Positions 486 to 43,755 of a stretch of 49,092 nt of DNA are shown one piece after another. Where the stretch lies: contig JABIRI010000011.1 of assembly GCA_018667915.1 (NCBI GenBank), positions 1 through 49,092 on the forward strand, in the 5' to 3' direction. Below the pieces are notes generated by a model. That model was not told where the DNA came from. It saw only the letters and a program-made list of their open reading frames with translations, and ran no database searches. Every line of letters starts with the position of its first letter. Within the stretch, counting starts at the first letter, position 1. Origin of the DNA: Opitutaceae bacterium. Its GTDB lineage: Bacteria; Verrucomicrobiota; Verrucomicrobiia; Opitutales; Opitutaceae. Both the position numbers and the translations under genes were made by a program.

Positions 486-501
486 TGGGTGAATTCACCC
501 A
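486..501. promoter_or_regulatory. Perfect 16-bp palindrome, candidate operator
   Basis: TGGGTGAATTCACCCA is self-complementary and sits in the divergent spacer between the DUF3817 gene (start 443, minus) and the 59-residue protein (start 578, plus). Its size and position suit a dimeric repressor site, but no regulator gene is adjacent, so function is inference. Confidence 0.35.
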
Positions 502-577
502 GTATCACCTGAGTAATCACACCTATGACCCGAGGGTTGAGTAACCAAAGCACAATCAATAGCTTGGAGCCGTTACG

Positions 578-757
578 ATGGCCCCGGATATCCAACGAAT
601 TCTGTTGATGATAGTTCTGCCCGCATTGGTGCTGATGCTGGGCCTGTGGTGGGGGATCAAACGTAAGAACACGCCTCCTGAAATGAGGTGGCCACGTCGT
701 AATCGTTCCCGCGGTCGTCGCCGAAGCGAACGGGACCTACCTCCGGCCGATCACTGA
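578..757 (+). CDS. Small single-pass membrane protein with basic tail
   Basis: A 59-residue open frame starts at ATG 578 behind a TTGGAG ribosome site (564-569) with good spacing, and ends at TGA 755-757. Residues 8-27 are strongly hydrophobic (ILLMIVLPALVLMLGLWWG). They are followed by KRKN and an Arg-rich tail at residues 37-52, giving a probable N-out, positive-inside single helix. I recognise no family. Support comes from the ribosome site, the transmembrane segment with positive-inside charge, and the otherwise empty gap. It may be a small accessory or stress membrane protein; no function is claimed. Confidence 0.5.
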   Translation: MAPDIQRILLMIVLPALVLMLGLWWGIKRKNTPPEMRWPRRNRSRGRRRSERDLPPADH

Positions 758-785
758 GCACGAAGCAGGAGCGCCGGTTCTTACT

Positions 786-1196
786 TCAATCCGGATCGTT
801 TTCCCAGAGGCGGGGCGTCGCGAATTCGAGACTGTTTCCGGCCGGATCACGGAAGTAGATGGAGCGCGCGCCGTTTTCCCAGGTTTCCTCGTGTTCGACT
901 TCAACTCCGGCGGATTCGATTCGTTCACGCCAACGTGTCAGGTCTTCGCGTTCAACGGCCCAACAGATATGCTCACTGCCTTGGCTGCCGTGCGAGGGAA
1001 TGTCGCCGGGATGGGGGTTCTTGGTTTCGTCAGGATTGAAGATCAGCACCATGCCATGACCACAGTGGAAGAACAGGTGACGGCCTTCTACGCGCGAGTG
1101 GAGCCGGAGCTCCAGCAAGTCGTGGTAGAAGCGATAAGCCGCATCCAAATCCTCGGCATAGATGCAGGTTTCGAGAACGCGAAGAGGGGGAAGCAT
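786..1196 (-). CDS. VOC family (glyoxalase/bleomycin-resistance fold) protein
   Basis: A 136-residue single-domain vicinal-oxygen-chelate protein. It has the two-repeat babbb pattern: repeat one from LRVLETCIYAEDLDAAYRFY to HGMVLIFNP, repeat two from EHICWAV to the closing DPAGNSLEFATP motif. Metal ligands in this fold are His and Glu on the strands; candidates are the His in EHICWAV and the Glu in NSLEF. VOC members include glyoxalase I, dioxygenases and drug-binding proteins, and the substrate cannot be told from sequence. The length is normal for a single-domain member. It is transcribed alone on the minus strand. Confidence 0.85.
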   Translation of the reverse strand: MLPPLRVLETCIYAEDLDAAYRFYHDLLELRLHSRVEGRHLFFHCGHGMVLIFNPDETKNPHPGDIPSHGSQGSEHICWAVEREDLTRWRERIESAGVEVEHEETWENGARSIYFRDPAGNSLEFATPRLWENDPD

Positions 1197-1327
1197 TTTA
1201 AAAATCTAGGTTAATTTTTCCGGAATCGATCCCGCCTTCGATCAATCGGCGATTTCGGTTGGGCAATCGTTCGGGCCACACCTTCTCGCCGAGCATTGGG
1301 AGTCTCAACCTTCAACTCCGCTTACGC

Positions 1328-1762
1328 CTATCGCGAAAACGTCCGGTTCTCGTTCAGTTGTCGGTCGATCTCGATCACTTGGTTGTGCCGGATGACGACT
1401 TTGATTTGTTCTACGCGAGCGATGCGTTGTTGATCCATCAGCGGCTCCTTGAGCATGTGCATTTCGCCAGTGATGGGGTCGACATAGGGCACCTCCTGCA
1501 TTTCTGCGGTTATCGTTTGGTAGATGGGCGGATGGTCCACCGTATAGTAGCGGGTTCCCTCCATCCGGTTCCATTCCGTGGCTGGTTCGATTTTCCGTGG
1601 CTCGCCCAAGCAATCCTGAAGCTGAACCCGCGTCATCCCGACAATCAACTCGCTCGAGGCGGCGGGTTTGTTTGCAACCCGGGTAGACTCGCAGCCCGCG
1701 AAAACGAGCATGGCGATGATGCCGAATGCACGAATCATCGAAAACGAATGAAGGTTTGGCAT
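1328..1762 (-). CDS. Putative lipoprotein with SmpA/BamE-like region
   Basis: A 144-residue protein. From the start at 1762 (MPNLHSF) it has a signal sequence ending in a lipobox-like FAGC with the lipidated Cys near residue 24, so outer-membrane or periplasmic anchoring is likely. A later ATG at 1738 (MIRAFGI) would also give a functional signal. The mature part begins with IVGMTRVQLQDCLGEP, which resembles the GMT..QV...LG.P helix of SmpA/OmlA/BamE-like domains; the rest (repeated Tyr/Pro/Glu, then a basic Ile/Val C-terminus) is not recognised. A longer in-frame upstream extension lacks signal-peptide logic and was rejected. It is divergent from the nucleotidyltransferase at 1900. Confidence 0.65.
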   Translation of the reverse strand: MPNLHSFSMIRAFGIIAMLVFAGCESTRVANKPAASSELIVGMTRVQLQDCLGEPRKIEPATEWNRMEGTRYYTVDHPPIYQTITAEMQEVPYVDPITGEMHMLKEPLMDQQRIARVEQIKVVIRHNQVIEIDRQLNENRTFSR

Positions 1763-1899
1763 GAAGCTCTGAACTTCCGCGAACGGCGCGTGATATACAA
1801 ACCGGGCGTTGGTTGCTGTTAATCTGTTCGATAAATCCAGCGTCTGATTCCCCGCAAAATGCTTGGCGCACGACCGTCGGGGCATTCGTCTAGGCGGTA

Positions 1900-2772
1900 A
1901 TGCAACCTTCAACACTTTTGGTCTTAGCCGCTGGAATGGGTTCCCGTTACGGAGGGCTCAAACAACTCGATCCGGTCGGGCCGAGTGGGGAAACCATTCT
2001 GGACTATGCCGTGTTTGACGCGATCCGCGCCGGTTTTGGCCGGGTAGTATTTGTAATCCGTCGGGATTTTGAGGAGATCTTTCGCGACAAGATTGGCGCC
2101 CGCTATGCCGACAAGATTGATGTGGGCTACGCCTTCCAATCGTTGGACCGTTTGCCGGCGGGAGTCACTCTGCCACCCGAGCGCGAAAAGCCTTGGGGCA
2201 CCGGACACGCGGTCTGGTGCGCGCGCGACGAAGTGCCGGGATCATTTGCGGCCATCAATGCCGATGATTTTCTCGGCCGTGATGCGTTTGAGCAGTTGGC
2301 CGGATTCATCGCTGCACCCGATGCGGAACATGCAATGGTCGGTTACCGTTTGGATCGCACGCTTTCCGAGCAGGGGTCGGTTTCGCGGGGCGTTTGTGCG
2401 GTGGATGCGAATGGCTTGTTGACCGAAGTTGTCGAACATACCGGCATCTCGCACTCCGACGTCGGCGAGGGTCGCACGTTCTCGGGCCAAGAAATCGTAT
2501 CGATGAATTGTTGGGCGTTTCAGCCGTCGTTTTGGGATCAACTCGATCGCCAACTCCACGCCTTCATCGACAAACAGCTCAACGTGCCGAAGGCGGAGTT
2601 CTATCTGCCTGCTTCAGTGTCGGAGGAAATCGCAGCCGGCAATACGACGGTCCGCGTGCGGCCAACGACAGCGAGCTGGTTTGGCGTTACTTATCGCGAA
2701 GACAAGCCACAGGTCGAAGCTACGCTCGCCGGCATGGTGGAGCGTGGGGAGTATCCCGCTTCGTTATTCTAA
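1900..2772 (+). CDS. Nucleotidyltransferase family protein (sugar-nucleotide type)
   Basis: A 290-residue cytoplasmic enzyme with the NTP-transferase Rossmann-like fold. The N-terminal signature LAAGMGSRYGGLKQL (about residues 9-23) matches the LAAGxGxR nucleotide-binding motif of enzymes that join an NTP to a sugar or polyol phosphate. KPWGTGHAVW (about 97-106) and INADDFLG (about 118-125) correspond to the base-binding and catalytic Asp regions. Family members activate hexose-1-phosphates or related compounds for cell-envelope synthesis; which substrate is used here cannot be told. It stands alone, and the following gene is convergent. Confidence 0.8.
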   Translation: MQPSTLLVLAAGMGSRYGGLKQLDPVGPSGETILDYAVFDAIRAGFGRVVFVIRRDFEEIFRDKIGARYADKIDVGYAFQSLDRLPAGVTLPPEREKPWGTGHAVWCARDEVPGSFAAINADDFLGRDAFEQLAGFIAAPDAEHAMVGYRLDRTLSEQGSVSRGVCAVDANGLLTEVVEHTGISHSDVGEGRTFSGQEIVSMNCWAFQPSFWDQLDRQLHAFIDKQLNVPKAEFYLPASVSEEIAAGNTTVRVRPTTASWFGVTYREDKPQVEATLAGMVERGEYPASLF

Positions 2773-2801
2773 GCACCCACCGCGCGACGAGGGAAATTGA
2801 G

Positions 2802-3485
2802 TCAGCGCGTTTTGTGCGATTTCAGTTTCGCTAGGGTCACGACGATTTCACTGGGATCGTAACGTTTGGTGTAGTCCTCATTGATTTCAGCTCGGGCAAT
2901 CTTGTGATCTGAGCCGATCACGTAAGAGGCTGCGAGAGGGAGTCGGTCCGCTCCAGCGTCTCCATTGAGCACATCAAGTTGAATTCCCATTTGCGCATAG
3001 ACTCGGAGTAGCGTCGGCGGAACATTGTAAACGAGTCCGTATTGATCAGCGGTGCGTAGTCCGGCATCGGTTACCAACGGGAAATTCAGCGCGTGGTCGA
3101 TCCGCGTTTGGAGGGAACCGTCGGGCAGTTGCGGTGATACCGCGATTAGCTCGGCGCCGAGTTCCTGGAGGCGAGGCAACTCGCGTTGAAGACCGCGCAG
3201 ATAGGTTTCACAAAACGGACACCAGCCTCCGCGAAAGAAAATCAGCACGACCGGACCGTGGGAGAGTTTTTCGTAGAGACGCAGGGGCGTTCCGTCGGAT
3301 GTGGGCAAAATGAAATCCGGCGCGGGTGCACCGGATTTCAGAGCCGCATCCCCAGCTCCGCGATCGACGAGGGTGCGGATGGTATCCCGCATCACCCGCA
3401 GCTGATCCGCTGAAAGCATGTCACCGAGCGCTGCAACCCGCTCGGCCAATTCGGCGCGCGTAGGGGCTGCAGCGGGGGAGGACAT
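2802..3485 (-). CDS. Peroxiredoxin-like (AhpC/TSA) protein
   Basis: A 227-residue thioredoxin-fold protein. An N-terminal helical region (about 1-50) precedes the redoxin core, which opens with GAPAPDFILPTSDG and carries FFRGGWCPFC, so a CxxC motif occupies the peroxidatic site. This arrangement is typical of the peroxiredoxin-like AhpC/TSA family with a WCPFC motif rather than the classical PxxxTxxC Prx motif. It probably reduces peroxides or protein thiols in the cytoplasm. The start at 3485 (MSSPAAAP) was preferred over an upstream in-frame ATG inside the glutaredoxin gene. It follows the glutaredoxin gene with a 43-base gap, so the two probably form a redox operon. Confidence 0.85.
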   Translation of the reverse strand: MSSPAAAPTRAELAERVAALGDMLSADQLRVMRDTIRTLVDRGAGDAALKSGAPAPDFILPTSDGTPLRLYEKLSHGPVVLIFFRGGWCPFCETYLRGLQRELPRLQELGAELIAVSPQLPDGSLQTRIDHALNFPLVTDAGLRTADQYGLVYNVPPTLLRVYAQMGIQLDVLNGDAGADRLPLAASYVIGSDHKIARAEINEDYTKRYDPSEIVVTLAKLKSHKTR

Positions 3486-3528
3486 GATAGGATCGACTGG
3501 GATGGAGTTCGGTAAACCGACCGCAGAC

Positions 3529-3789
3529 TCAGGCGGGAACGTCGAGACCGCGAGCTTTGAAAAAAGGGACAAGCTCGTCGGCGCCGAAGTCGGCCAGCAC
3601 GTCACCGTTCCAGTTGAGCACGGGCGCCTTGGTCTGGCCGGAGAGAGCTTTCATGCGATCGAAGGCGTTGGCATCCGAGGTCACATTGACCTCTTGATAT
3701 TTGTGACCGGCGCGATCGAGCACGTCGGTGGCTTGAGCACACCAAGGGCAGCCGGTTTTGACGAAGAGTTGAGGAAGTTCGGAAGACAT
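3529..3789 (-). CDS. Glutaredoxin family protein
   Basis: An 86-residue thioredoxin-fold protein with a dithiol CPWC motif near residues 14-17 (VKTGCPWCAQA), a KAPVL cis-Pro loop and a DELVPFF C-terminal helix. The length fits small bacterial glutaredoxins, which reduce protein or glutathione mixed disulfides in the cytoplasm; CPWC instead of CPYC is a common variant. The start at 3789 was chosen because the upstream extension is Pro/Arg-rich and non-family. Its position between the peroxiredoxin-like gene and the YHS gene suggests it supplies electrons to the neighbouring peroxidase. Confidence 0.88.
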   Translation of the reverse strand: MSSELPQLFVKTGCPWCAQATDVLDRAGHKYQEVNVTSDANAFDRMKALSGQTKAPVLNWNGDVLADFGADELVPFFKARGLDVPA

Positions 3790-3821
3790 TTTGATGGAGG
3801 GACGAAGTTCTGAGGGAAGAG

Positions 3822-3861
3822 GAAATATAAACGGAGGCGATTCTGAAGGGAACCGCCTCCG
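3822..3861 (-). terminator. Intrinsic terminator after the YHS gene
   Basis: An 8-bp perfect stem, CGGAGGCG (3832-3839) with CGCCTCCG (3854-3861), is followed on the minus strand by the T-rich run TTTATATTT. It lies directly downstream of the YHS gene stop and upstream of the glutaredoxin start, so it probably limits read-through between them. Confidence 0.6.
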
Positions 3862-3877
3862 AGGTTTTGCTGAAAAA

Positions 3878-4321
3878 TTATTCAGATGCGTTGAGGCTGG
3901 GCCAGTTGGCATCGGCCCTCTCGATAAGGGCGTCGATATCGGCATCGAACTGGGCTTTGATCTCAGCGTTGTAGTTGAGAATCAAACGGCCGCCGGTGAT
4001 CTGCCAGGTGTCGATTTCGACGGGAAACAGTTTTCCTTTGGCCGCACCAAATCCACAGTAGCCGCCGTAAGCGGGCAGATATCTTTCAGGGGAAGCCAGA
4101 AACAGATCACGATGAGCAGTCTTGGCGAACTGGTAGGTCGCACCTTCATGCTCGGCGGTGATGGAGGATTTACCCTGCACGGCTGCCCCCAAAGTGAAGA
4201 AGGCGACGGGATCGTGCCCGGAGAGGGCGAGACCGTTGTCGTCGGTGTTGACCGCGGCGCTCGCTTGAGCGGCGAGAGAGAGTAGCGTGAAGGCAGCGAT
4301 GAAGCGAAGTGAGTGGGTCAT
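3878..4321 (-). CDS. Secreted YHS-domain protein
   Basis: A 147-residue protein with an N-terminal signal peptide (MTHSLRFIAAFTLLSLAAQASA, in two parts: basic/polar start, hydrophobic core, AxA cleavage near residue 23). The mature part has the YHS hallmarks GHDPVAFF (about 35-42), a YQFAKTAHRDLF segment and YLPAYGGYCGFG (about 81-92). The YHS domain is a small, possibly metal-binding module named from a Tyr-His-Ser set; secreted copies are widespread and uncharacterised. The gene is divergent from the LysR regulator at 4468, so it is the likely regulatory target, and it is followed by a terminator. Confidence 0.85.
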   Translation of the reverse strand: MTHSLRFIAAFTLLSLAAQASAAVNTDDNGLALSGHDPVAFFTLGAAVQGKSSITAEHEGATYQFAKTAHRDLFLASPERYLPAYGGYCGFGAAKGKLFPVEIDTWQITGGRLILNYNAEIKAQFDADIDALIERADANWPSLNASE

Positions 4322-4421
4322 GATATTTTGGTGTGTTGGATTGGGTTTGAAATTTTCGACCGGCGGGGCCGATCGGTTGGTGGGTCCAGAATAACCTGAA
4401 GTTATAAATTAGTGAAATCGT

Positions 4422-4443
4422 ATGATTTTCTTGAATTAATCAT
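4422..4443. promoter_or_regulatory. Candidate LysR-type operator between YHS and LysR genes
   Basis: ATGATT (4422-4427) and AATCAT (4438-4443) form an inverted repeat with a 10-base AT-rich spacer inside the 146-base divergent region. It contains a T-N(n)-A core of the kind LysR-type regulators bind. The surrounding 60 bases are markedly AT-rich compared with the genome average seen here, as expected for overlapping divergent promoters. Confidence 0.4.
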
Positions 4444-4467
4444 ATTTTCTTATGACTAATTCGGACC

Positions 4468-5391
4468 ATGGAACTGCGACACATGCGGACCTTCGCGGCG
4501 GTGGCCCGGGCTTTAAATTTCACGGCGGCGGCGGCGGAGTTGAATGTTGCGCAGCCGGCGGTGAGTCAGACCATCCGCGATCTGGAGGACGAGATGGGGG
4601 TGCAGTTGTTCCACCGCACCAAACGATCCGTGCGCATTACGGCGGCGGGGCGCACGTTTCAGGCCGATGTCGAACGCATCTTGAGTGATGCCGATGTGGC
4701 TGTCCAAGCCACGCAACGAGCGGCACGGGGCGAGGTGGGAGCGCTCTCAGTGGGGTTTATGGGGCCAGCGATGTGGCCGGTTCTTCCTGAAATCGTGAAA
4801 GATTATCAGGGGCTGTATCCCGGGGTGGAGTTGTCGTTGCGGGAGTTGATGCCGGACCGGCAAATCACGGCGTTTCGCGAAGGTCGATTAGACGTGGGGT
4901 TTTCCCGATCGTTTGGTGAGCAGGCCCAGGAGTTGTGGCTGGATGAAGAACTCATTTACACCGATCGGATCGTCGCAGCAGTGCCGACGGATCATGCGCT
5001 GGCGAAGCGCCGTCGTTTGAGTCTCAAACAACTGGGGCGGGAAGACTTGGTGCTGTATCACCGCGAAGGCACCCCCGGTATGTTTGACCAAATCATTGAG
5101 ACTTTGCGTGGGGTAGGCGTGGTTCCACGGGTGCGCCATCAGCCCGATCAAATGATGACGGTGCTCACTTGGGTGGCGGCGGGTTCCGGCATCGGACTTG
5201 TGCCGGGATGCGTTGCGCGGCTGGCATTTGAAGGCGTGGAGTTCCGCGAAATCACGCCCTCGGCAGGCCCGCTTCCGCTGGTGATGGTGCATCGGCGGGC
5301 TGATGAGTCGCCAACGGTCGCTGCATTTGTCGATCGGGTGCGGGCGCAGCGGGATCGGTTGCAGAAGGGTATGGAAGGACGCTGCAGTTGA
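4468..5391 (+). CDS. LysR family transcriptional regulator
   Basis: A 307-residue LysR-type regulator. Residues 1-60 hold the winged helix-turn-helix (MELRHMRTFAAVA, then AAAELNVAQPAVSQTIRDLE and LFHRTKRSVRITAAG). Residues about 90-295 form the periplasmic-binding-protein-like effector domain (GALSVGFMG, PGVELSLRELM, DVGFSR, ASGIGLVPG). Such regulators act as tetramers at divergent promoters and respond to a small ligand. The divergent YHS gene with an intervening inverted repeat is the most likely target; the symporter that follows after 52 bases on the same strand is another. The ligand is not predictable, though the effector region resembles BenM/CatR-like aromatic-responsive members. Confidence 0.9.
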   Translation: MELRHMRTFAAVARALNFTAAAAELNVAQPAVSQTIRDLEDEMGVQLFHRTKRSVRITAAGRTFQADVERILSDADVAVQATQRAARGEVGALSVGFMGPAMWPVLPEIVKDYQGLYPGVELSLRELMPDRQITAFREGRLDVGFSRSFGEQAQELWLDEELIYTDRIVAAVPTDHALAKRRRLSLKQLGREDLVLYHREGTPGMFDQIIETLRGVGVVPRVRHQPDQMMTVLTWVAAGSGIGLVPGCVARLAFEGVEFREITPSAGPLPLVMVHRRADESPTVAAFVDRVRAQRDRLQKGMEGRCS

Positions 5392-5443
5392 CGCTGAGCG
5401 CGGAGCGGGGAAGGTTGTTGATCACCCCTCGACCCCGTTTGCC

Positions 5444-6724
5444 ATGAATTCCCTTTTCGATCCGCGTTATCTGACTCGTAACATCCTCATCGGTATGGCG
5501 CTGGGCGCGACCATCGGCACGGCGCTTAACATGGCGGGAGCGACTCCAGAGGCGCCAGGGTTTATCGCAGGAGAACTGTTCCAATTATTGGGCGATGTGT
5601 TTGTGCGGTCCTTGCAGGTATTGGTCGTGCCCCTCGTATTGCTGTCCCTGATCGTCGGCACGGCTTCATTGGACGATGTGCGCAAGCTCGGCCGGATCGG
5701 CGTGAAGACGTTGGTCTTCTACATCGGCACGACGGCTGCAGCGATCACGATCGCGATGTTGTTGGCTGTGGTGTTTCGAGCGGGGTCAGGATTTGAGCTG
5801 AATCTTGAATCGAGTTTTAGCGCAAAAGAAAGTCCCGGTCTGCGCTCGGTGTTGACCAATATTTTCCCGAAAAACCCCTTCGCGGCGATGGCCGAAGGCA
5901 ACATGCTTCAAGTGATCGTTTTCGCGATTCTGATCGGGATTTCGATGTGCTTGGCCGGGGCGCCCGGTCAGCGGGTTTTGGCCATCGCCAAAGATTTAAA
6001 CGAAGTCGTGATGAAGTTGGTCGTGGTGCTCATGCTGGCCGCTCCGTTCGGTGTTTTTGCGCTGGTCGGGAAAACGTTCGCCATTCAAGGCTTTGGCACG
6101 ATAGCGGCCCTGGGGCAGTATTTTGGATTAGTGCTTGGTGCGCTACTCCTCCACGCGTTCATTACCTACGGAATAATTTTGAAGGTGTTTTCGGGGTTGA
6201 GCCCCGTGCGTTTCTTTAAGCAGATGCGTCGCGTGCAACTGTTCGCGTTTTCGACCGCGAGCAGTAACGCGACTTTACCTCTCAATCTGGAGAATGCGGA
6301 ACATAACCTCGGCGTGAAGCGCTCGATTGGTTCGTTCACGATTCCGTTGGGCGCGACGATCAACATGGATGGCACGGCGATCATGCAGGGTGTTGCCACC
6401 GTATTTATCTCCACCGCGTTGGGCGTTGAGCTCGGGGTGCAGGGCTACTTGATGGTCATCCTCACGGCGACCCTCGCTTCGGTCGGAACGGCGGGGGTGC
6501 CGGGGGTCGGCCTCGTGATGCTTGCCATGGTATTTAATCAAGTCGGGCTGCCACTTGAAGCGATTGGAGTCATTCTGGGCGTAGATCGCCTCCTCGATAT
6601 GGTTCGCACCGCGGTCAACGTGACTGGTGACGCGGTTGTTTCTACCATCGTCGCGAAGTCGGAAGGTGAGTTTAGCCAGGCGATTTTCGATGCTGAGGAG
6701 CCCCAGTGGGAAGAACGCACGTGA
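5444..6724 (+). CDS. Dicarboxylate/amino-acid:cation symporter (DAACS family)
   Basis: A 426-residue inner-membrane transporter of the GltP/DctA/GltPh family, which moves C4-dicarboxylates or acidic/neutral amino acids with Na+ or H+. Diagnostic motifs are the Ser-rich hairpin TASSNATLPLNLENAE, the NMDGTAIMQG signature (sodium and substrate site) and the C-terminal DRLLDMVRTAVNVTGDA, where the second Asp and Asn contact substrate. TM1-3 start at LTRNILIGMALGATIGT. A longer in-frame start at 5303 overlaps the LysR gene and lacks family similarity; 5444 gives the usual N-terminus. It lies 52 bases after the LysR gene on the same strand. Confidence 0.92.
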   Translation: MNSLFDPRYLTRNILIGMALGATIGTALNMAGATPEAPGFIAGELFQLLGDVFVRSLQVLVVPLVLLSLIVGTASLDDVRKLGRIGVKTLVFYIGTTAAAITIAMLLAVVFRAGSGFELNLESSFSAKESPGLRSVLTNIFPKNPFAAMAEGNMLQVIVFAILIGISMCLAGAPGQRVLAIAKDLNEVVMKLVVVLMLAAPFGVFALVGKTFAIQGFGTIAALGQYFGLVLGALLLHAFITYGIILKVFSGLSPVRFFKQMRRVQLFAFSTASSNATLPLNLENAEHNLGVKRSIGSFTIPLGATINMDGTAIMQGVATVFISTALGVELGVQGYLMVILTATLASVGTAGVPGVGLVMLAMVFNQVGLPLEAIGVILGVDRLLDMVRTAVNVTGDAVVSTIVAKSEGEFSQAIFDAEEPQWEERT

Positions 6725-6803
6725 GGTCCCGGAATGCCGTGCTTTCCGCAAAACGGGTTTGCGCCGGACGCAAGAACCCGCGTAGGTGCGTCTCTACACG
6801 TTA

Positions 6804-8147
6804 ATGAATTCAATTTCCAATGAGCTGTTGGTGTTGCTGCTTTTGCTGGTGGCCAATGGCATTTTTGCCTTTGCCCGCGCCGCGTTAGGAGCCGCCCGTA
6901 AATCCCGCTTGCGGGAGCTGGCCGACGAGAATGCGCCGCACGCCGCCGAGGTCCTGAAAGTGCTCGAAGAGCCGGGCAAAATTATGACGGCGATTCGTTT
7001 CGCCGTGATTTTTGCTACCGTGCTGGCGGGTGCGCGGGTAGGTGGCGCCGTGACCGAACGTATTCAGATCATGATTACCGAGACGGCTTGGTTGCAGCCG
7101 ATGGCTCGCCCAGTGTCTCTGACCCTGGCGGCGTTGGCTATCACGATCGCCGTGGTTTTCATTGCGGAACTTTTGCCTCGCCGATTAGCACAGATGAGCC
7201 CGGAGCGTTTTGCCATGCTGTTGGTGCGGCCGATGCGCATTATGGCCTTTGCGGTCAGTCCCTTTGTTTCCGCGCTGTCCGCTCTCACGGAACTCATCCT
7301 GTGGCCGTTTGGCCTTCACCGCACTCCGAAGGAAAATCCGGTCACGGAAGAAGAAGTAAACACCTTGGTAGAGGAGGGGATGAAGGGCGGTGTCTTCAAC
7401 GAATCCGAACGCGACATGGTCGCCGGGGTGCTCGAACTCGATGAGATGCCGATCACCTATCTCACGACCCCGCGCCCGAAATTGGTGTTTCTCGATCTGG
7501 CCGACCCAGACGAGACCAACTGGCGCAAAGTAGTGGCCAGCGGTCACTCGCATTTCCCAGTGGTCCACGGTAACAAGGAACAGGTTATCGGCATGGTTTC
7601 GGTCAAAGCGATGTGGGCGAACCACGCGTTTGGCGTGCCGACCGCGCTGCGTCATCTGCTGACGCCGCCCCTGACGGTTCCGGAGAACATGGCGGCTAGC
7701 GCCGTGCTCGAGCAATTCAAACGCACCGGCCAACACATTGCCCTCGTGAACGACGAGTTTGGGGCTCTGGCCGGTGTGGTCACGCTCTACGATGTGTTGG
7801 AAGCAATCGTTGGCGACATTCCTGAGCCCGGTCGGCAGAGCGGCCCCGAGGTGGTCACTCGACCGGATGGTTCGTTCCTGATGGATGCGACCTTCGAGAT
7901 CGATGAATTCAAAGAGCTTACCCACCTCGACGACCTACCACATGAAGAGGAAACCGAGTTTCAAACGGTCGGTGGTTTTGTTCTGACTCACTTCGGTCGA
8001 ATTCCCAGCGCAGGTGACCGCTTCGAGTTAGAGGGCTGGCGCTTCGAAGTCATGGATATGGACCGCCAACGTATCGACAAGGTCTTGGTATCCCCGCCCA
8101 TTGCGCCGGAAAAGGACCCTTCGGAAGATCCCGCTGGAGGTATTTGA
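6804..8147 (+). CDS. CNNM/CorC-type (hemolysin family) transporter-like protein
   Basis: A 447-residue membrane protein with the classic three-part layout. A DUF21/CNNM transmembrane domain spans about 1-180 (hydrophobic segments LLVLLLLLVANGIFAFARAALG, in two parts, VSLTLAALAITIAVVFIAELLP and FAVSPFVSALSALTELILWP). A CBS-domain pair spans about 205-335 (PRPKLVFLDLADP, FPVVHGNKEQVIGMVSVK, IALVNDEFGALAGVVTLYDVLE). A CorC_HlyC cytoplasmic domain lies at about 355-435. Relatives export or sense Mg2+/Co2+ with adenine nucleotides bound at the CBS pair. The start at 6804 was taken because an ATG with family-like sequence follows. It is transcribed alone or with the symporter (79-base gap). Confidence 0.9.
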   Translation: MNSISNELLVLLLLLVANGIFAFARAALGAARKSRLRELADENAPHAAEVLKVLEEPGKIMTAIRFAVIFATVLAGARVGGAVTERIQIMITETAWLQPMARPVSLTLAALAITIAVVFIAELLPRRLAQMSPERFAMLLVRPMRIMAFAVSPFVSALSALTELILWPFGLHRTPKENPVTEEEVNTLVEEGMKGGVFNESERDMVAGVLELDEMPITYLTTPRPKLVFLDLADPDETNWRKVVASGHSHFPVVHGNKEQVIGMVSVKAMWANHAFGVPTALRHLLTPPLTVPENMAASAVLEQFKRTGQHIALVNDEFGALAGVVTLYDVLEAIVGDIPEPGRQSGPEVVTRPDGSFLMDATFEIDEFKELTHLDDLPHEEETEFQTVGGFVLTHFGRIPSAGDRFELEGWRFEVMDMDRQRIDKVLVSPPIAPEKDPSEDPAGGI

Positions 8148-35629: not shown

Positions 35630-38332
35630 TCAAATCGCCGCGGTCACTCTGGCAATCGTGCCCAATAGGTTGTCGATTTCGTAGGGCTTCTGCAGATAGG
35701 CGTCATAGGCCACCCCTTCCAGATTGGTTTTGGGGTCAGTCGCCCCGTAACCGCTCAGTATGATGATGCGGACGTCAGGATCGATTTCCCGGAGTTTATG
35801 CAATGTCTCTACCCCGGTCAGGCCGGGCATGGTCAAATCGAGCAAAACTACGGCAATGTCCGACCGGTGGGCGCGGAATACATCAAGCGCTTCCTCACCG
35901 TCGGCTGCCGCTAAGGCTTTAATGCCTTCCATGTCCAAAATATTAAGGGCCAGTTCACGCACGGATTCTTCATCATCCACGACGAGGACTGCGCCGTCGA
36001 TATGGGCGGGCGCAGGGGTAGGGGTAGGCTCGGTCGTCGGTGGATTTTGGGCGGTTGATTTCAGTAGGTATACTGTGAATACGGAGCCCTGCCCGGGTTC
36101 GGACGAGGCGATCAGGGCGCCGCCGTGTGACTGCACGATGCCGTGGGCGGTTGATAACCCCAGGCCACGGCCTTTGGCCTTGGTTGTAAAAAAGGGATCG
36201 AATACGCGGCTCAGTTCTTCCGGTGAAATTCCGGAACCATTGTCGGAGAACGCTACGCCGACATAGGTGCCGGGGCTCAATCGCTGGGTCTCCAAATCAG
36301 AAGATGAATCTGATGGGAAGAACGTGCGTTCGAAGGTTCGAATTGTAATCGTGCCCAATTGAGGGGAGATTGCGTCGGAGGCGTTGATAATCAGATTCAT
36401 CACCACCTGACGAATTTGGGTGATGTTGGCTTCGATAGATGCGGACGTTGGTAAAAGATCCTCTTGGATGGTTACACTTTTGGGCAGTGAAGCGCTGAGC
36501 AGTTTGGTGGTTTGGGTGATGATTTGATTGAGGTCGATTACCTCAGATTCATGAGATGCTTGGCCCGCGTAGGTGAGCATCTGTTGGCATAGTTCGGAGG
36601 CACGGCGAGAAGCCGTTTCGATCAGCTCGAGTTTATGGTCGTGTCCGGGCGTTATGGATTCGTCTCGACGCATCAGGGATGCCTGTCCCAGGACCGTCGC
36701 AAGAATGTTATTAAAGTCGTGAGCCACACCGCCGGCGAGCTCCCCGAGACTTTCCATTTTCTGACTGGCTTGCAGCTTGCGTTCGTATTCGCTTCGCAAA
36801 CGCTCAGATTCCGCTCGATCGGTGATATTGGTGACGATGCCTCCCACGGCGTAGAGCTCGCCATTTTCATCGAAGATGGGAAATTTCTGCACGATATCGA
36901 CGCGCCGTTTTCCCTGAAATTCAAAATCGGTTTCAAGGCGGACCACCTCCCGCGAATCGATAACTTTTTGATCAACGTCTCGAAACGTTTTCGCTATCTC
37001 GGGTGAAAACAAATCGTCGTCGGTGCGGCCGAGGATTTCGTCGGGAGATCTCCCCAGCGATTTCTCAAGTTCACCATTGAAGAGAATGTAGCGTCCGCTG
37101 CGGTCTTTGACGAAAATTTCGCTGCCACTGTTGTCGAGAATCCCGCGAAGCAGACCTTCGCTTTCTTGCCACTTTTTCTCTGCGATGACCCGCTGCGTGA
37201 TGTCTTGTTCGAGCATCTTGCGGGTTTCTTCGAGTGCTTGAGTCCGTCGAGCAACAAGTCGTTCGACCTCTCGATTCTGAACCAGCAGTGAATTGATTAA
37301 CAGCGTGAGTAGTGCGGTGGCAAAAACACCTCCTCCGAGGATTAGCCAGGGCGTATGGCTGCGCTGACCGTTCGCCCAATCCGGATTGAGGCGTGCGATG
37401 AACCTCCATTGTCGATTTCCGATATCGAATGTCTCGGTGTGAAAATCAGGTCGTGATTCGTCCAAGTCTACGGGCAGTGCGACCGTTTGGGAATTAGACA
37501 TGGGCGGTTCATACCCCGCAAAATTGGCATAAAGCACGGGTCGCTCATGGGCCGCGGCGGACGCATCTTCATAATAAACGAGAAGGGCTTCGTCCACTGA
37601 GTCGCGGTGAAGGGTAGCGAAGGCATCGTGGACGAGCAGGATACATTGAACAAAGCCGCGCAAAAAGTCGGTTTCTTGACCGCGTTCACGAATGAAAATA
37701 GGCACAATCAAATTAACCGCCATCAGATCATCGGGACTGCCTGCCTGTGCTAAGGTGAATTGAGGAGTCGCCACCATCCTGCGGGTTTTTACCGCATCCT
37801 CCAAAGTGCGGATCGTAGGCGCACTCAATAGATCGTAACCAATGACGGATTCATTGCCGGCCAGGGGCACTACCGTTTGAATCGGATAGTATAAATCAGC
37901 GGGTGGAGCAGGCTTGAACGAACCGTCGGATTGCCTTTGGCGGATAGTGATGGCCCGATTTTGAATTTGGGAATTCATTTTCTCGAATCGCTCGCGATTG
38001 GCGCCTCGAACCGCCGGGACCCATTCCATCATTGCGATGGAGGGATGTCGTTGGGTGAGAGACTCAAAGTTTTCTCTGAGCATGGCCCAAAACACATTTA
38101 CCTTGAATGAACCCACCGTGGAGAGTTGTAGCATCATCTCCGGATAGATTTTCAGATGCTCCCGGGCAGCATCTGAACGCTGTTTCGCCCGGTGCTGAAA
38201 TTCCGACAAAATTCGAGCCTCCTGCTCCTCGATCGCCTTATTTCGCAACACAACCGAGGTCGTGATACCCGCGATTGCGATCAATGAGACCACGAGAAAG
38301 CGGTAGCGGGATGATACGGTGGACGGAAACAT
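35630..38332 (-). CDS. CHASE/PAS hybrid sensor histidine kinase with receiver
   Basis: A 900-residue membrane kinase. Helix 1 at 11-29; periplasmic CHASE domain at about 73-300; helix 2 at 328-350; short coiled coil to 385; PAS domain at about 395-510 (GILDNSGSEIFVKDRSG); HisKA with GGVAHDFNNIL (phospho-His 538); HATPase_c at about 640-760 (N-box LIINASDA, G1 SDNGSGIS, G2 GRGLGLS); a Pro/Thr linker of about 20 residues; then a receiver at 781-897 with phospho-acceptor Asp832 and Lys882. CHASE domains bind small extracellular signals, in some bacteria cytokinin-like or nucleotide ligands. No output regulator gene is adjacent. The intrinsic receiver suggests phosphorelay or autoregulation. Confidence 0.93.
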   Translation of the reverse strand: MFPSTVSSRYRFLVVSLIAIAGITTSVVLRNKAIEEQEARILSEFQHRAKQRSDAAREHLKIYPEMMLQLSTVGSFKVNVFWAMLRENFESLTQRHPSIAMMEWVPAVRGANRERFEKMNSQIQNRAITIRQRQSDGSFKPAPPADLYYPIQTVVPLAGNESVIGYDLLSAPTIRTLEDAVKTRRMVATPQFTLAQAGSPDDLMAVNLIVPIFIRERGQETDFLRGFVQCILLVHDAFATLHRDSVDEALLVYYEDASAAAHERPVLYANFAGYEPPMSNSQTVALPVDLDESRPDFHTETFDIGNRQWRFIARLNPDWANGQRSHTPWLILGGGVFATALLTLLINSLLVQNREVERLVARRTQALEETRKMLEQDITQRVIAEKKWQESEGLLRGILDNSGSEIFVKDRSGRYILFNGELEKSLGRSPDEILGRTDDDLFSPEIAKTFRDVDQKVIDSREVVRLETDFEFQGKRRVDIVQKFPIFDENGELYAVGGIVTNITDRAESERLRSEYERKLQASQKMESLGELAGGVAHDFNNILATVLGQASLMRRDESITPGHDHKLELIETASRRASELCQQMLTYAGQASHESEVIDLNQIITQTTKLLSASLPKSVTIQEDLLPTSASIEANITQIRQVVMNLIINASDAISPQLGTITIRTFERTFFPSDSSSDLETQRLSPGTYVGVAFSDNGSGISPEELSRVFDPFFTTKAKGRGLGLSTAHGIVQSHGGALIASSEPGQGSVFTVYLLKSTAQNPPTTEPTPTPAPAHIDGAVLVVDDEESVRELALNILDMEGIKALAAADGEEALDVFRAHRSDIAVVLLDLTMPGLTGVETLHKLREIDPDVRIIILSGYGATDPKTNLEGVAYDAYLQKPYEIDNLLGTIARVTAAI

Positions 38333-39505: not shown

Positions 39506-40456
39506 CTAACGCAGACGATATCGGATCAGTGGCGGCTGTTTTGCTTCTGTTGTGAGAAGAAGCGTTGAGCCGTTTTCATCGAAACACAGCGATTCTGCCT
39601 GAGGCAGGCCTTTGATGGGAATACGCACGGGGGGGTGCGTCAGGACATCCGTCCAGCGTTCGCCGACGGGACGATTGTAGATGTAAACGTTGCCGTAGGT
39701 GAGCACGGCGGCGCTACGGTTGTCGGCCGATATGTCGAATCCGGTGACTTGGGAACGATAGATCCCGAGTCGACCGGGGATCAGTTTTTCCGCTGCGGTT
39801 GGAGCAACGATTCCTCCGACCGGGTTGATTCGCTGGGCCACGTAGGGGCCGTCGTCATCGTCGCACTGGGTCAACAAAGGCAAGCTGTAGAGCACCGGAG
39901 GTTCCGTGCGTTTGGAGATCAGCAGGATTTTTCCATTGATGGGGTCGATGGCGACTCCTTCGCAGTCGCGCGGGCCGTCTTCATAACGAAATGGCATGAC
40001 GGAGGGCGCGGTAACGCGCATCACGGGTTGGTCGGCAAAATCGGCGGGGTCGGGTTCGGGCAGCAGGTAGATCACCACGTCGTCGCGAACGGACGCGTTG
40101 TCACCGACATCGGCGATCAATAGCCATGGTTTGCCGTCGATGTTGACCAACGCCATGTCCTCCCAGTCTCGCGCGATGGCGTTGGTGATCTCCAGGATGC
40201 CGCGCGTTTTACCGTCTGGCCCGACCGCGAAGAGGCGAGGTTTGTCGCCACTATCATTGTGCACCCAGAGGACGCCGGGTTCCCGGAGAGAGCAGGCCAT
40301 GCCGCTGATTTCATTCAGGCGGGCATCTTCAAAATGGGTCAGGGTCTCGGGGCCGGGCCGGTCGGCATGCATGGGGGCAAGGGTGGAGCAACCGGCTAAG
40401 ATCAGCGCAAACAGAGGAAGGTAACGTAAAACGGAAGGAGCCAAGCGCGCAGCCAA
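39506..40456 (-). CDS. Secreted lipoprotein with beta-propeller-like repeats
   Basis: A 316-residue lipoprotein: ARLAPSVLRYLPLFALIL leads to AGC (Cys23), a good lipobox. The mature part shows repeated strand patterns with ISGMACSLREPGVLWVHNDSG, WEDMALVNIDGKPWLLIADVGDN, DCEGVAIDPINGKILLISKR and AESLCFDENGSTLLLTTEA, reminiscent of NHL/phytase-like propellers with acidic (DxD/DxN) loops that could bind calcium. Function is unknown. It could be an extracellular esterase or carbohydrate-contacting protein. It is divergent from deoC. Confidence 0.8.
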   Translation of the reverse strand: MAARLAPSVLRYLPLFALILAGCSTLAPMHADRPGPETLTHFEDARLNEISGMACSLREPGVLWVHNDSGDKPRLFAVGPDGKTRGILEITNAIARDWEDMALVNIDGKPWLLIADVGDNASVRDDVVIYLLPEPDPADFADQPVMRVTAPSVMPFRYEDGPRDCEGVAIDPINGKILLISKRTEPPVLYSLPLLTQCDDDDGPYVAQRINPVGGIVAPTAAEKLIPGRLGIYRSQVTGFDISADNRSAAVLTYGNVYIYNRPVGERWTDVLTHPPVRIPIKGLPQAESLCFDENGSTLLLTTEAKQPPLIRYRLR

Positions 40457-40547: not shown

Positions 40548-41486
40548 ATGGCAGTCGCTCAACCCACCGTATTCCGTCGTTTGATGAACGAGATTGGCAA
40601 CGTCGATGCCGTCGGCGTTGAAGAACGCGCGGCAAAATATGGGACCCGATCGATCAAGACGGCATCCAAGGTGCAGGGGCTTAAACTTGCGGCTTCGATG
40701 GTGGATCTTACGACGCTCGAAGGTAAGGACACTCCCGGCAAAGTGCGCGCGCTTTGTGCGAAAGCCATCCGCCCTCACGATGATTTGGACTGCCCACCGA
40801 CCGGTGCAGTTTGTGTGTATCCGGCGATGGTGAAGCACGCCCGTGCTGCGTTGGGCGATAAGTCGCCGGTCAATATCGCTTCGGTCGCCACGGCATTTCC
40901 CAGCGGTCAGGTGCACCTGCGCACGCGTTTGGCAGAAGTGAAAGCTGCCGTCGCGGACGGTGCCGATGAGATCGATATGGTGATCAATCGCGGCGCTTTT
41001 CACGCGGGCGAATACAACCGGATGCAGGATGAAATTGCGGCGGTGGTTGAAGCCTGTGGAGACGCGGCCTTGAAGGTGATTTTGGAAACGAGCGAACTCG
41101 AGACCTTCGACAATATCCGCGGCGCGTCATTCCTGGCGATGCGGGTGATTCGTGCGGGCGATTTCATCAAAACGTCCACCGGCAAAACATCAGCCAATGC
41201 GACCCTCGCCAACAATCAGGTTATGTTGGATGCGATTCGTGACTTCTATTTCGAGACTGGGGTTGCGATCGGGATGAAACCCGCGGGTGGCATTAAATCC
41301 GCCAAGCAAGCACTGCATTTTCTGGTCGCGGTAAAAGAGACTCTGGGCGACGACTGGCTGACGAATCGCCGCTATCGGTTTGGGGCATCTTCGCTGCTCA
41401 ACGATCTCTTGCGCCAGCTCGTAAAAATGGAGACCGGAGCGTATCAGGCCCCCTACACCTTCAGCGAAGCGGCAGGGGCTTATTGA
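40548..41486 (+). CDS. deoC: Deoxyribose-phosphate aldolase
   Basis: A 312-residue class I aldolase that splits 2-deoxyribose-5-phosphate into acetaldehyde and glyceraldehyde-3-phosphate. The Schiff-base Lys is K208 in FIKTSTGK; the second active-site Lys is K244 in GMKPAGGIK; Asp in MVDLTTLEG and EIDMVIN complete the family pattern. It is longer than the 250-residue E. coli enzyme because of an N-terminal extension of about 45 residues, as in the larger DeoC group. The acetaldehyde it makes could be used by the aldehyde dehydrogenase at 43997. The start at 40548 was chosen (ATG behind a purine-poor leader); an upstream ATG at 40467 is less family-like. It overlaps the receiver gene convergently by seven bases. 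Confidence 0.95.
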   Translation: MAVAQPTVFRRLMNEIGNVDAVGVEERAAKYGTRSIKTASKVQGLKLAASMVDLTTLEGKDTPGKVRALCAKAIRPHDDLDCPPTGAVCVYPAMVKHARAALGDKSPVNIASVATAFPSGQVHLRTRLAEVKAAVADGADEIDMVINRGAFHAGEYNRMQDEIAAVVEACGDAALKVILETSELETFDNIRGASFLAMRVIRAGDFIKTSTGKTSANATLANNQVMLDAIRDFYFETGVAIGMKPAGGIKSAKQALHFLVAVKETLGDDWLTNRRYRFGASSLLNDLLRQLVKMETGAYQAPYTFSEAAGAY

Positions 41487-41878
41487 TCTTCAGCGGAGGC
41501 GGTCGGCGACTCGTCGGCCGATAATAATTTTCGGACTGTTTTGAGTAGAGCTTCCAGAGGTGCCGTCTTGTTGTGATAAGCGGTGATTTTGGTGCTAAGC
41601 TTCTCATCGATGGTCTGTTCATCGAAATAGACTCCGGTGAGGAGAATGACGGGGACGTCGGGCAGGTCTTGACGAATCGATCCTACCAGCTCCAAGCCGT
41701 CCGAATTGGCTAATTGCAGGTCGGTGATGATGAGGTCGGGGGTTTTCGCCGCAATGGCTGCTTTGGCCTCTCGTGGGGTGGAAGCTTGAGCAATACTGTA
41801 GCCCTCTTTCTCGAAGAGTTCGCGGAGGAGGCTCAGGATGACTTCTTCGTCGTCGATGGTGAGAATGTTTTGGGTCAC
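41480..41878 (-). CDS. Single-domain response regulator (receiver only)
   Basis: A 132-residue REC domain. The acidic pocket is IDDEE (Asp9, Asp10), the phospho-acceptor is Asp53 in LIITDLQL, the switch Thr is in ILLTGVYF and the Lys is in AYHNKTAPL, where Thr replaces the usual Pro after Lys. There is no output domain, so it would act through protein contacts like CheY or as a phosphate sink. GTG at 41876-41878 is the likely start; an ATG further upstream lies inside the sensor gene. It follows the sensor gene by 28 bases on the same strand. Confidence 0.85.
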   Translation of the reverse strand: MTQNILTIDDEEVILSLLRELFEKEGYSIAQASTPREAKAAIAAKTPDLIITDLQLANSDGLELVGSIRQDLPDVPVILLTGVYFDEQTIDEKLSTKITAYHNKTAPLEALLKTVRKLLSADESPTASAEDQ

Positions 41879-41906
41879 GGTGATATTAAAATAAAAATGG
41901 TTTAAC

Positions 41907-43034
41907 TTAGTTGGATGGACGGAGCGTAATGACTCCTCCCACCACGCGGTCGTGATCCCGGAGGGGATGTAGGCTCGCGAGCATGGGTCTGGATTTGTGA
42001 TTGTGGTCGATGGCGTTGGCCGCGTGATCGACAAGATCCTGATTGGAGCGCAACGAGAGCTCGAACGGATCGATCATTTCGTCGCCGGACTCATCGATGG
42101 CCAGTTTTACGAATTCGGAGATGGATTGATCCACGAGGGCAGGAGCGAGTTCACCGATGAGGTTTTCGAATGCTGGATTCACGCGCGAAATATTAAGCGC
42201 GCGGGTGACGACCACCACGGGGCTGGCGACACTTTCGATGATGAGATTATTGTAGCGGAGCTGGTGTTCCAATGCTTGTGCAGACCACCGGCTCTCAAGG
42301 TTTTCAGCCCGTAGTTTGCGGTTGGATTGTTTCAGCTCCGACGTGCGCTCAGCCACGCGAGCTTCCAGTTCTTCATTGGAGGCTGCGAGCAGAGCAGCTT
42401 CCCGTCGCCGGCTTTTCAAATCGTCGCGGATAAACCAGCTTGAGATTAATAAAAGTAGCAGGGTTAGTCCCGCGCCGACGTAGAGGGTATTGCGGGTGCG
42501 GTTGTCGCGATTGAACTCCACGCGATCCCGTTGTTGGAGCAGACCTTGGTGCCGACTCACGATCCGCCGATTCAAGCTGGCCAAGGCGTCAATTTGGGTG
42601 GGGTCATCTTCGCTCAATTGCTGATGGATACTGTCCGTGTCTCCGGACCGGTGCGCCGCGAGTAACGCCCGGGCGATGTCTGCCCGTGCGATCAGCGCCG
42701 TTTCGAGTTCCGCAACTTCACTTTTGTTTTCCGCCTCGGAAGCAGCCAAAGCTTTTGCAACTTCGATGTGCTCGGAGAGTTCTCCGAACGCCTGGCTCAT
42801 TTGAGCCCGTTGGTCGGGGTTGTTGGTCAGGAGGAACGCGTGTAAGGCGCTCTCCGCTCGTTGGCCTGCGGTGACGGCTGCGTTGATCTCGGCGATGAAC
42901 GCGTGGGTGTGGTTGACCCATTGCGCGGAGCGATTGGCTCGCTGCAGATTGGTAATCGAGAGCACCACCTCGGTCACCATGCTCGTCGCGAGAATGGCGA
43001 AGACCAAAAGGATCAGGCGGAATGTTTTGTCCAT
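41907..43034 (-). CDS. CHASE3-PAS membrane sensor lacking a kinase domain
   Basis: A 375-residue protein. Helix 1 spans about 7-28; residues 30-180 form a helical CHASE3-like periplasmic domain (QWVNHTHAFIAEINAAV, ESALHAFLLTNNPDQ); helix 2 spans about 186-202; a coiled coil of about 205-258 follows (EELEARVAERTSELKQSNRKL, in two parts); a PAS-like domain fills about 262-372 (IIESVASPVVVVTRALNISRVNPAF, in two parts). There is no HisKA, HATPase, GGDEF, EAL or HAMP domain, so it cannot phosphorylate the receiver itself. The transglutaminase-like gene starts 43 bases upstream on the same strand. Confidence 0.85.
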   Translation of the reverse strand: MDKTFRLILLVFAILATSMVTEVVLSITNLQRANRSAQWVNHTHAFIAEINAAVTAGQRAESALHAFLLTNNPDQRAQMSQAFGELSEHIEVAKALAASEAENKSEVAELETALIARADIARALLAAHRSGDTDSIHQQLSEDDPTQIDALASLNRRIVSRHQGLLQQRDRVEFNRDNRTRNTLYVGAGLTLLLLLISSWFIRDDLKSRRREAALLAASNEELEARVAERTSELKQSNRKLRAENLESRWSAQALEHQLRYNNLIIESVASPVVVVTRALNISRVNPAFENLIGELAPALVDQSISEFVKLAIDESGDEMIDPFELSLRSNQDLVDHAANAIDHNHKSRPMLASLHPLRDHDRVVGGVITLRPSN

Positions 43035-43077
43035 GAGGTGGAGGCGGGTTGAAACCGAATAGGAGAAAAATAGAGGA

Positions 43078-43755
43078 TCACTCGACGAGAAAGGGATTGG
43101 GGCGAGGTGCTGCTTTCCCAGGAGGAGGATCGGTGCTCGGATCCTGAGTGCGCACGACTTTGGCGGTAATGTTCTTGCGCTGGTTATTATACGAAAAATC
43201 GAATTCGAATGCCGAGGTCCAATTTGCGTTGAGCGAGCGGGCCACCTTGCCGGCGATCTTGCGCAACGACGGGTCGGAACGCGTCATAGTGAAAAAAATG
43301 TTACGATTATTGTAGTCAAGATACGCGCCATCCTCCGTGACGTAGCAGACGGCGTGAGAGGTCATCCCCACCAGCCTGATGTGGATAAGCCGGGTCTCAA
43401 AACCTTTTGGCTTGAGAACGTCGTCGGCTAGACACGCGTAATCGTCACAGTCCCCGCTTTTAGTGCGAAGGAACTCTTCGGGCGTCTGCACGTAATCAAA
43501 AAGCTCGAAGTTGAAGTCGGAGAACATACGACTAAATTTTTTTGGGGTCAGGTCGGGTTGGCCACGGAGGTGCCCTATGCTCATGGCCATCGAGGTCGTC
43601 GCAAATAGGGCCAGAGCGAGAAGACCTCCCGCCAAGGTAACTTTTCGATGAGATGGTCCCAAACCAAGCCTTAGACTGCTTCTTGCGGAAGCGGCGATTG
43701 GGTAGGTCCGCTCACAGCGTGATGGGACTGGAAGATATGATGGATTTGTTTTCAC
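43078..43755 (-). CDS. Transglutaminase-like cysteine protease-type protein, membrane-anchored or secreted
   Basis: A 225-residue protein with a basic N-terminus and a hydrophobic segment at about 40-58 (TLAGGLLALALFATTSMAM) serving as signal or anchor. The core holds a Cys-His-Asp set in transglutaminase-fold order: SGDCDDYACLA (C103), TSHAVCYVT (H134) and YLDYNNRN (D147). This matches bacterial transglutaminase-like cysteine proteinases, which cleave or crosslink periplasmic proteins. The C-terminal tail is Lys/Pro-rich. It heads a three-gene minus-strand group with the CHASE3-PAS sensor and the receiver. Confidence 0.8.
   Translation of the reverse strand: MKTNPSYLPVPSRCERTYPIAASARSSLRLGLGPSHRKVTLAGGLLALALFATTSMAMSIGHLRGQPDLTPKKFSRMFSDFNFELFDYVQTPEEFLRTKSGDCDDYACLADDVLKPKGFETRLIHIRLVGMTSHAVCYVTEDGAYLDYNNRNIFFTMTRSDPSLRKIAGKVARSLNANWTSAFEFDFSYNNQRKNITAKVVRTQDPSTDPPPGKAAPRPNPFLVE

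Follow-up and report, generated by a model that had tools for sequence, protein, structure and literature searches.

The window analysed here is a 49,092-nucleotide stretch of contig JABIRI010000011.1 from an Opitutaceae bacterium, and it carries three minus-strand genes at 41480-43755, here called T, S and R, that a preliminary description made from the sequence alone had read as one operon. T (43078-43755, minus strand) encodes a predicted exported transglutaminase-like cysteine protein of 225 amino acids with a GTG start, in which C103, H134 and D147 are accompanied by a second conserved cysteine, C137. S (41907-43034, minus strand) encodes a 375-amino-acid membrane receptor built of CHASE3, coiled coil and PAS with neither a kinase nor another output domain, and R (41480-41878, minus strand) encodes a lone receiver, that is, a single-domain response regulator, of 132 amino acids with a GTG start and conserved phosphorylation-site residues. 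Open reading frame (ORF) calls confirm the strand and the gaps that had been reported, 43 bases between T and S and 28 bases between S and R. Start and stop codons of neighbouring genes in the unit often overlap by 4 bases across the 30 loci that were measured. The end of R falls inside the last 7 bases of a convergent deoC-like gene.

T matches the transglutaminase-like Pfam family DUF553 (PF04473) at 31.7 bits, which passes the gathering cut-off of 20.5. It stays below the Pfam cut-offs of Transglut_core (20.9 versus 23 bits) and Peptidase_C93 (PF06035; 15.6 versus 27 bits), and it scores 14 bits against a cut-off of 320 for the NCBIfam LapG equivalog NF045674. The Cys-His-Asp assignment of the preliminary description holds, because these residues are conserved among 62 distinct ORFs: C103 is kept in 58/58 readable sequences, and H134 and D147 are each kept in 60/61. 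LapG has a calcium site beside its active cysteine; in T, acidic residues flank the cysteine in the motif GDCDDYA, where D104 is replaced by Ile in 8/58 sequences and by Gln or Lys in 2/58. The AlphaFold2 model of T (mean predicted local distance difference test score (pLDDT) 80, with most core blocks above 90; predicted template modelling score (pTM) 0.70) suggests that the three residues sit in a transglutaminase-like fold. The closest solved fold to this model is that of the CPR-C4 protease (Z 12.3, root-mean-square deviation 4.6 over 159 residues); the values for LapG are Z 9.8 and 3.0 over 120 residues, and the vasohibins come next with Z 9.7. Simple hydropathy finds one hydrophobic stretch in T, N-terminal at residues 39-53, and with an alternative TTG start at 43662 (codon 32) the signal peptide would be more compact. 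Such a stretch (13-residue window) is found in the T of 46 of the 49 complete triplets, and one T has a lipobox-like motif. T is probably an exported enzyme, and its activity may be proteolytic.

S passes the Pfam cut-offs of CHASE3 (50.5 bits, cut-off 28) and PAS_4 (24.6 bits, cut-off 23.1) and of no other model. Two hydrophobic helices, assigned by hydropathy to residues 7-25 (42960-43016) and 184-202 (42429-42485), enclose the CHASE3 domain and are followed by the coiled coil and then by the PAS domain, directly after which the protein stops. HisKA and HATPase are absent from S in Pfam searches up to E 1, in agreement with the earlier claim that S has no catalytic output domain, and NCBIfam kinase models cover only its PAS domain and coiled coil with scores far under the cut-off. 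By Pfam, S matches neither the LapD/MoxY periplasmic domain nor GGDEF-EAL, and HD-GYP is matched neither in S nor in the 10 dCache-type receptors described below. In the AlphaFold2 model (mean pLDDT 86.8, pTM 0.47), a single predicted helix, residues 146-268, spans from CHASE3 to PAS. The short architecture is kept in relatives, with 26 invariant columns across 26 S sequences; simple hydropathy gives two membrane-type helices in 39 of the 49 complete triplets, three in 7 and one in 3. Pfam was used for the S of the window, and the CHASE3 domains of the other T-linked receptors were recognised by a receptor profile.

R matches Response_reg at 77.6 bits over residues 5-115 of 132 and has no output domain, so it is a receiver-only protein as had been proposed, and D9, D10, D53, T81 and K104 are invariant in 49/49 sequences. 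Among the 49 complete triplets, the partial correlation of distances is highest for the PAS domain and R, 0.43 (95% interval 0.29-0.55), which supports a link between S and R. Residue comparison of the receptors also points to the start of the PAS domain, where a motif [HQ]Q.[RHK]Y (H257-Q-L-R-Y-N in the window, 42249-42266, minus strand) is retained in receiver-linked receptors and is gone from three receiver-less ones (L112, L117 and L119). Q258 and Y261 are found in 49/49 sequences and H257 in 48/49, with Gln at position 257 in L157 and L172. H257 was considered as an essential phospho-acceptor and rejected, because these two receptors with Gln are receiver-linked. The three receiver-less receptors cluster together on the PAS tree (support 99/88), with a very long branch for L119, so the loss of the motif may be one event rather than three.

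The same gene order was sought in relatives, and the neighbourhood is clearly conserved and exceeds chance; the refuting outcome named in the preliminary description, an unconserved neighbourhood, did not occur. Loci were pooled and deduplicated on the last 110 residues of each receptor, giving 66 distinct receptor loci, of which 50 have both T and R, 4 have T but lack R, 10 (L128 and L148-L156) have R without T together with another, putatively exported protein family, A, and 2 have neither T nor A. Among the four loci without R, L055 ends at a contig end, and L112, L117 and L119 have no R within the examined stretch; T is convergent in L119. The two loci with neither enzyme, L171 and L172, lie where contigs break off, and T is present at other contig ends of their genomes (G112 and G034). 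All 64 resolvable receptors therefore adjoin a Cys-His protein, which is T for the CHASE3 receptors and A for the dCache receptors, so that the two receptor types differ in their thiol-enzyme partner. Outside the 66 are L035, where T and R are present and the S frame is broken, L053, where a contig end leaves T and the first part of S (L172 is the other half), and the places with T and no adjoining receptor: L057 (the same as L108), L062 (the same as L124, the T of G112), L120, L125, L121 and L122. T lies at contig ends in L120 and L125, and the T match of L122 lies within a 1639-residue ORF in which the catalytic Cys is missing.

T was found in 32/189 relatives by a single-sequence search, in 44/200 genomes of the family Opitutaceae by a profile search, and in 10/387 genomes sampled from the phylum, 9 of the 10 belonging to the same family. 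A scan with two peptide patterns, using one genome per species, returned 54 loci from taxa that include Opitutaceae, Opitutus, Lacunisphaera, Oleiharenicola, Cephaloticoccus, Pedosphaera and other Verrucomicrobiota; a weak Brocadiaceae match (L127) gives no hit with the T, S or R profiles. When genes were clustered among 34 loci (the window and 33 others), T was present in 32, S in 30 and R in 28, and the other clusters common to at least 4 loci were one family (4 loci) and one mixed kinase/PAS cluster (11 loci), in which the members checked proved to be hybrid kinases and a multi-PAS protein. T-S-R recurs as a unit in Opitutaceae while its other neighbours change. The PAS module (E<1e-40) occurs in 52/200 family genomes, with two more weak matches; all 44 genomes with T fall within these 52, and the remaining 8 are dCache genomes, all 8 of them with A. 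One genome, G561, has both kinds of receptor. T and S are also present or missing together within genera: in genus g1, G005 has neither and the seven other genomes, including that of the window, have both, and G010 (g4), G023 (g17) and G024 (g18) have neither while their congeners have both.

Several of these loci have features of their own. T or S genes are frameshifted or split at L035, L049, L063 and L118, all in draft genomes, by decay or by assembly error. The extra T copy without S in G074 (L057, 10870-11478) adjoins receiver-containing genes, and the same genome has a full T-S-R unit. In L043 (2561-11874), T-S-R stands at the end of a chemosensory cluster, in the order CHASE3-HAMP protein, CheA-like Hpt-HATPase-CheW-REC protein, CheB, REC-PAS-kinase-REC protein and then T-S-R.

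The 10 loci without T carry receptors with the same PAS domain, placed behind HAMP, and the same receiver family in 10/10 cases. Their sensor scores above the dCache_1 cut-off in 7/10 and matches the related first-PDC model in 9/10; the L156 receptor was scanned from HAMP onward, and an ORF that immediately precedes it (5380-6291) clusters with the other receptors. On the PAS tree, the dCache receptors fall among the receiver-linked CHASE3 receptors, where branching is largely unresolved; 3 changes of the sensor label are required (2-3 across the bootstraps), and the starred branches force only 1. This position suggests that sensor and enzyme have been exchanged together, PAS and R staying in place. 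Family A (about 220 residues) is present in 10/10 of these loci and family B (about 194 residues) in 9/10, the contig ending inside A in the locus without B, L150. The discovery of A and B overturned a reading in which dCache loci have no enzyme and the receiver would be the output. The N-termini of both families look like signal peptides by eye. The gene order is A-B-S-R in L148, L151 and L155 and S-R-A-B in L128 and L156, and A and B lie on the strand opposite to S-R in L149, L150, L152, L153 and L154.

The motifs D-C-D, H and E-P-Q of A are invariant in 9/9 close sequences and in 21/21 sequences of a wider alignment that we chose, composed of 7 of the 9 close sequences and 14 from 14 of 18 further loci. 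No Pfam model scores above cut-off in the A sequences scanned; the weak matches below cut-off are PF15644 (E 0.008, L128) and PF18021, the protease domain of Marasmius oreades agglutinin (MOA; E 0.012 at best, L178). A is proposed, without proof, to be a cysteine protease of the papain superfamily. Comparison by hhalign relates B to A (probability 95.7, E 1e-8), and in the alignment of the two profiles the Cys of A stands opposite an invariant Gly of B, the His opposite an invariant Asp, and E-P-Q opposite D-P-P. Because B does not have the catalytic-type residues of A, it should be an inactive paralogue. Copies of A also occur away from these receptors, in L178, L179 and L181-L186 and in the window's own genome, G000 (G000:C111:103-687), with B alongside in some places; in L175 (5327-8641), A and B come right after a chemoreceptor gene.

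The kinase for R would be encoded elsewhere. A family of REC-HisKA-HATPase kinases of about 360 residues stands beside the dCache loci L149 (two copies), L151, L154 and L155 and beside the CHASE3 loci L157 and L166. Pfam was run on one of the two L149 kinases and on those of L154, L155, L157 and L166; no sensor domain is matched in these members, and in the L166 kinase REC and HATPase are matched and HisKA is not. Kinases of this kind, with no matched sensor domain, favour a signal that reaches R from the cytoplasm. The best place to seek the kinase of R is L155, where a same-strand run (391-7498) holds a 912-amino-acid hybrid kinase, a REC-HisKA-HATPase kinase, A, B, the dCache receptor and the receiver. 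In the window, a hybrid kinase of the order CHASE-PAS-HisKA-HATPase-REC (35630-38332, minus strand) lies 3.1 kb from the unit.

Read most simply, a conserved phospho-receiver, a non-catalytic receptor and a predicted exported enzyme with catalytic-type residues would make up a dedicated three-part envelope signalling unit that works inside-out, from kinase to R to S to T, and we give this reading close to an even chance of being right. S would be the receptor hub, its periplasmic CHASE3 bundle working with the exported cysteine enzyme T and its cytoplasmic coiled coil and PAS domain working with R, which would dock probably near the HQLRYN motif. R would be phosphorylated by a kinase encoded at another place, probably one that has no sensor in the periplasm. 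Once bound, R or R~P would alter the S dimer, the change would travel via the long helix and the membrane, the periplasmic half would hold or release T, and released T would cut or modify an envelope protein. The sister family of dCache-HAMP-PAS receptors, with the same receiver family, would act in the same way on another exported enzyme, A, together with B. The sequences establish the composition and order of the genes, the retained catalytic-type and phosphorylation-site residues and the pairing of sensor type with enzyme type; export, the S-T and S-R contacts, the direction of signalling, proteolysis, the kinase and the substrate belong to the proposal. The preliminary description had offered two links, that S gates T and that S signals to R through a kinase encoded elsewhere. 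The T-S pairs without R (L112, L117 and L119) give genetic support to the first, and the 10 loci with PAS and R and without T support the second; gating itself and the remote kinase stay at the level of proposals, and both links may be true together.

A broader form of this proposal, which we put forward tentatively and at somewhat less than an even chance, is that these are kinase-less receptors with an exchangeable periplasmic cassette, in which CHASE3 goes with a transglutaminase-like protease and dCache with a papain-like one and its inactive paralogue, and that by way of this cassette a phosphorylated lone receiver in the cytoplasm controls periplasmic proteolysis as an inside-out output of a phosphorelay. 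In LapD-LapG and DvhD-DvhG, where receptors gate periplasmic cysteine proteases, the inner signal is cyclic diguanylate (c-di-GMP). If a receiver did the gating here, it would parallel what c-di-GMP does in LapD and DvhD, two-component signalling would act on envelope proteolysis directly, bypassing transcription, and kinase-less CHASE3-PAS proteins and lone receivers would gain a function. The pairing of sensor and enzyme types amounts to an experiment done by nature, on which the idea can be tested.

Comparison with known systems, for which the cited papers were available in part, indicates what is familiar and what is new in this arrangement. In LapD-LapG, a membrane receptor gates a periplasmic protease with c-di-GMP as the inner signal (PMC4359373). 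The likeness, seen with the systems of Pseudomonas fluorescens and with Legionella CdgS9-LapG, is that a receptor with a periplasmic domain controls an exported Cys-His-Asp protease of transglutaminase fold. LapD, however, has a LapD/MoxY periplasmic domain and a HAMP-GGDEF-EAL part that reads c-di-GMP, according to the accessible text of PMC13090378, whereas S has CHASE3, PAS and a separate receiver. The comparison with LapG made in the preliminary description thus stands for fold and logic and fails for family membership, where T scores 14 bits against 320. Peptidase_C93 (PF06035) has no match in the window's own genome, while the control search is positive in Caulobacter, and T-S-R does not appear to be a Lap system. 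LapD_MoxY_N also gives no match in that genome, a result that carries no weight because the controls gave none either. DvhD-DvhG of Desulfovibrio vulgaris follows an inside-out logic with c-di-GMP through a dCache-PAS-HD-GYP receptor, and its periplasmic dCache and its PAS resemble those of the dCache sister receptors (same source). DvhD ends in a c-di-GMP-binding HD-GYP domain; the receptors described here have no HD-GYP and have a receiver gene instead, and the dCache receptors adjoin A rather than a LapG-like protease. By analogy with these two systems, the most likely logic of the unit is inside-out control in which a receiver replaces the c-di-GMP domain.

In Caulobacter, the kinase-inactive receptor DivL reads the phosphorylated state of the single-domain receiver DivK, and its PAS domain aids specificity (PMC4211667, in part); as a receptor-like protein without kinase activity it resembles S, but it keeps a kinase-like core, whereas S has none and has a periplasmic domain and an adjoining enzyme gene. 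HvyA, a Caulobacter bacterial transglutaminase-like cysteine protease, is likewise a periplasmic Cys-His-Asp protein that acts at the cell surface, but the main regulation presented in the accessible part of PMC4241560 is control of its abundance through the cell cycle rather than an adjacent receptor. For A, the nearest comparison is MOA, in which Cys215 and His257 form the catalytic dyad, Glu274 anchors the His and Gln276 has been studied, and on whose site A the LapG calcium site superimposes (PMC8244254, in part). The Cys of A aligns with Cys215 in DCDDFA, compare the DCD of A, and the spacing of Glu274 and Gln276 equals that of the invariant E-P-Q. MOA, however, is a fungal lectin fusion, and its likeness to A is not significant (E 1.1 for PDB 2iho; PF18021 as above). 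GlnH-GlnX offers a periplasmic protein proposed to signal through a receptor, a region of GlnX matching CHASE3 at borderline significance (PMC9769921, in part). Receptor-gated envelope cysteine proteases are of a known kind, and the distinct inner module, a receiver, would be what is new here. In accordance with the preliminary description, no account of a T-S-R composition was found among the papers listed by the literature searches, two of which covered 20 of 6,654 and 10 of 31 records, in a library that holds few subscription papers.

A number of observations weigh against the inside-out unit or against parts of it. A kinase is not a constant neighbour: a same-strand kinase stands directly upstream at 5/64 loci versus 23/511 other genes, a weak excess, and this count misses the upstream kinases of L060 and L063 (an intervening receiver gene or a split T). 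No substrate was found, and the LapA-type retention module NF033682 gives 0 matches in the window's own genome, with a control that matched in 1/14 genomes, below cut-off. The partial correlation between T and CHASE3 is the lowest, 0.06 (95% interval -0.23 to 0.38, which includes zero; the same 49 triplets), and it counts against contact between S and T unless the test is weak at that pair. The receiver-less state is known from 3 sequences in one group, the long-branched L119 among them, and S is missing beside the second T copy of G074 (L057/L108) and beside the T of L121 (Pedosphaera). As for the sister loci, the view of A as a protease leans on residues that are invariant and on hits under threshold, and in the PDB search MOA was outranked by an unrelated leucine-rich repeat protein (E 0.71); A is matched in 34/200 family genomes (1e-5) and so is wider than these receptors; and the likeness of A to T is not significant (hhalign probability 9 and 47), for which reason homology of the two was dropped. 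Allostery also works both ways, and the same genes fit a flow of information in the opposite direction.

In that opposite arrangement, T or A would process a periplasmic ligand or the sensor, CHASE3 or dCache would read the result, and the PAS domain would bind or release R as the output, which would act on further partners. CHASE3 and dCache are usually ligand-sensing domains. R is retained in the 10 loci where the sensor differs, and GlnH-GlnX provides a proposed precedent for signalling by a periplasmic protein through a related four-helix sensor, as far as the available part of PMC9769921 goes. We nevertheless consider this arrangement unlikely, although worth keeping in view, because S has no kinase or phosphatase domain and could affect R by binding alone, because the strict conservation of the phosphorylation site (49/49) suggests that R carries information in, and because T-S pairs exist without R (3 loci). 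The absent covariation of T and CHASE3, together with the genomes that have T without an adjacent S, would suit a common regulon without contact, in which S senses, R serves other kinases and T is a housekeeping enzyme of the envelope. This is improbable in view of the match of sensor and enzyme type at 64/64 resolvable loci, the joint presence or absence of T and S within genera, and the few other neighbours that the loci have in common. The hybrid kinase at 35630-38332 would be the real partner of R, with S incidental, if its distance of 3.1 kb and a homologue in L031, 48% identical and close to the unit, were telling, but a full-length homologue that close was found in L031 only, among the ORFs searched, the kinase has its own receiver and it does not travel with the unit; we regard this as very unlikely. 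That S is a decayed histidine kinase in a degenerating unit is hardly credible: S does end directly after PAS, as though HisKA and HATPase had been removed, and broken copies occur in a few relatives (S in L035 and L049, T in L063), but the short architecture and its invariant columns are kept and the sites of T and R are conserved.

Elsewhere in the window, 39506-40456 (minus strand) encodes a protein of 316 amino acids that gives no Pfam match up to E 1 and has, by eye, a lipoprotein-like N-terminus (LAGC).

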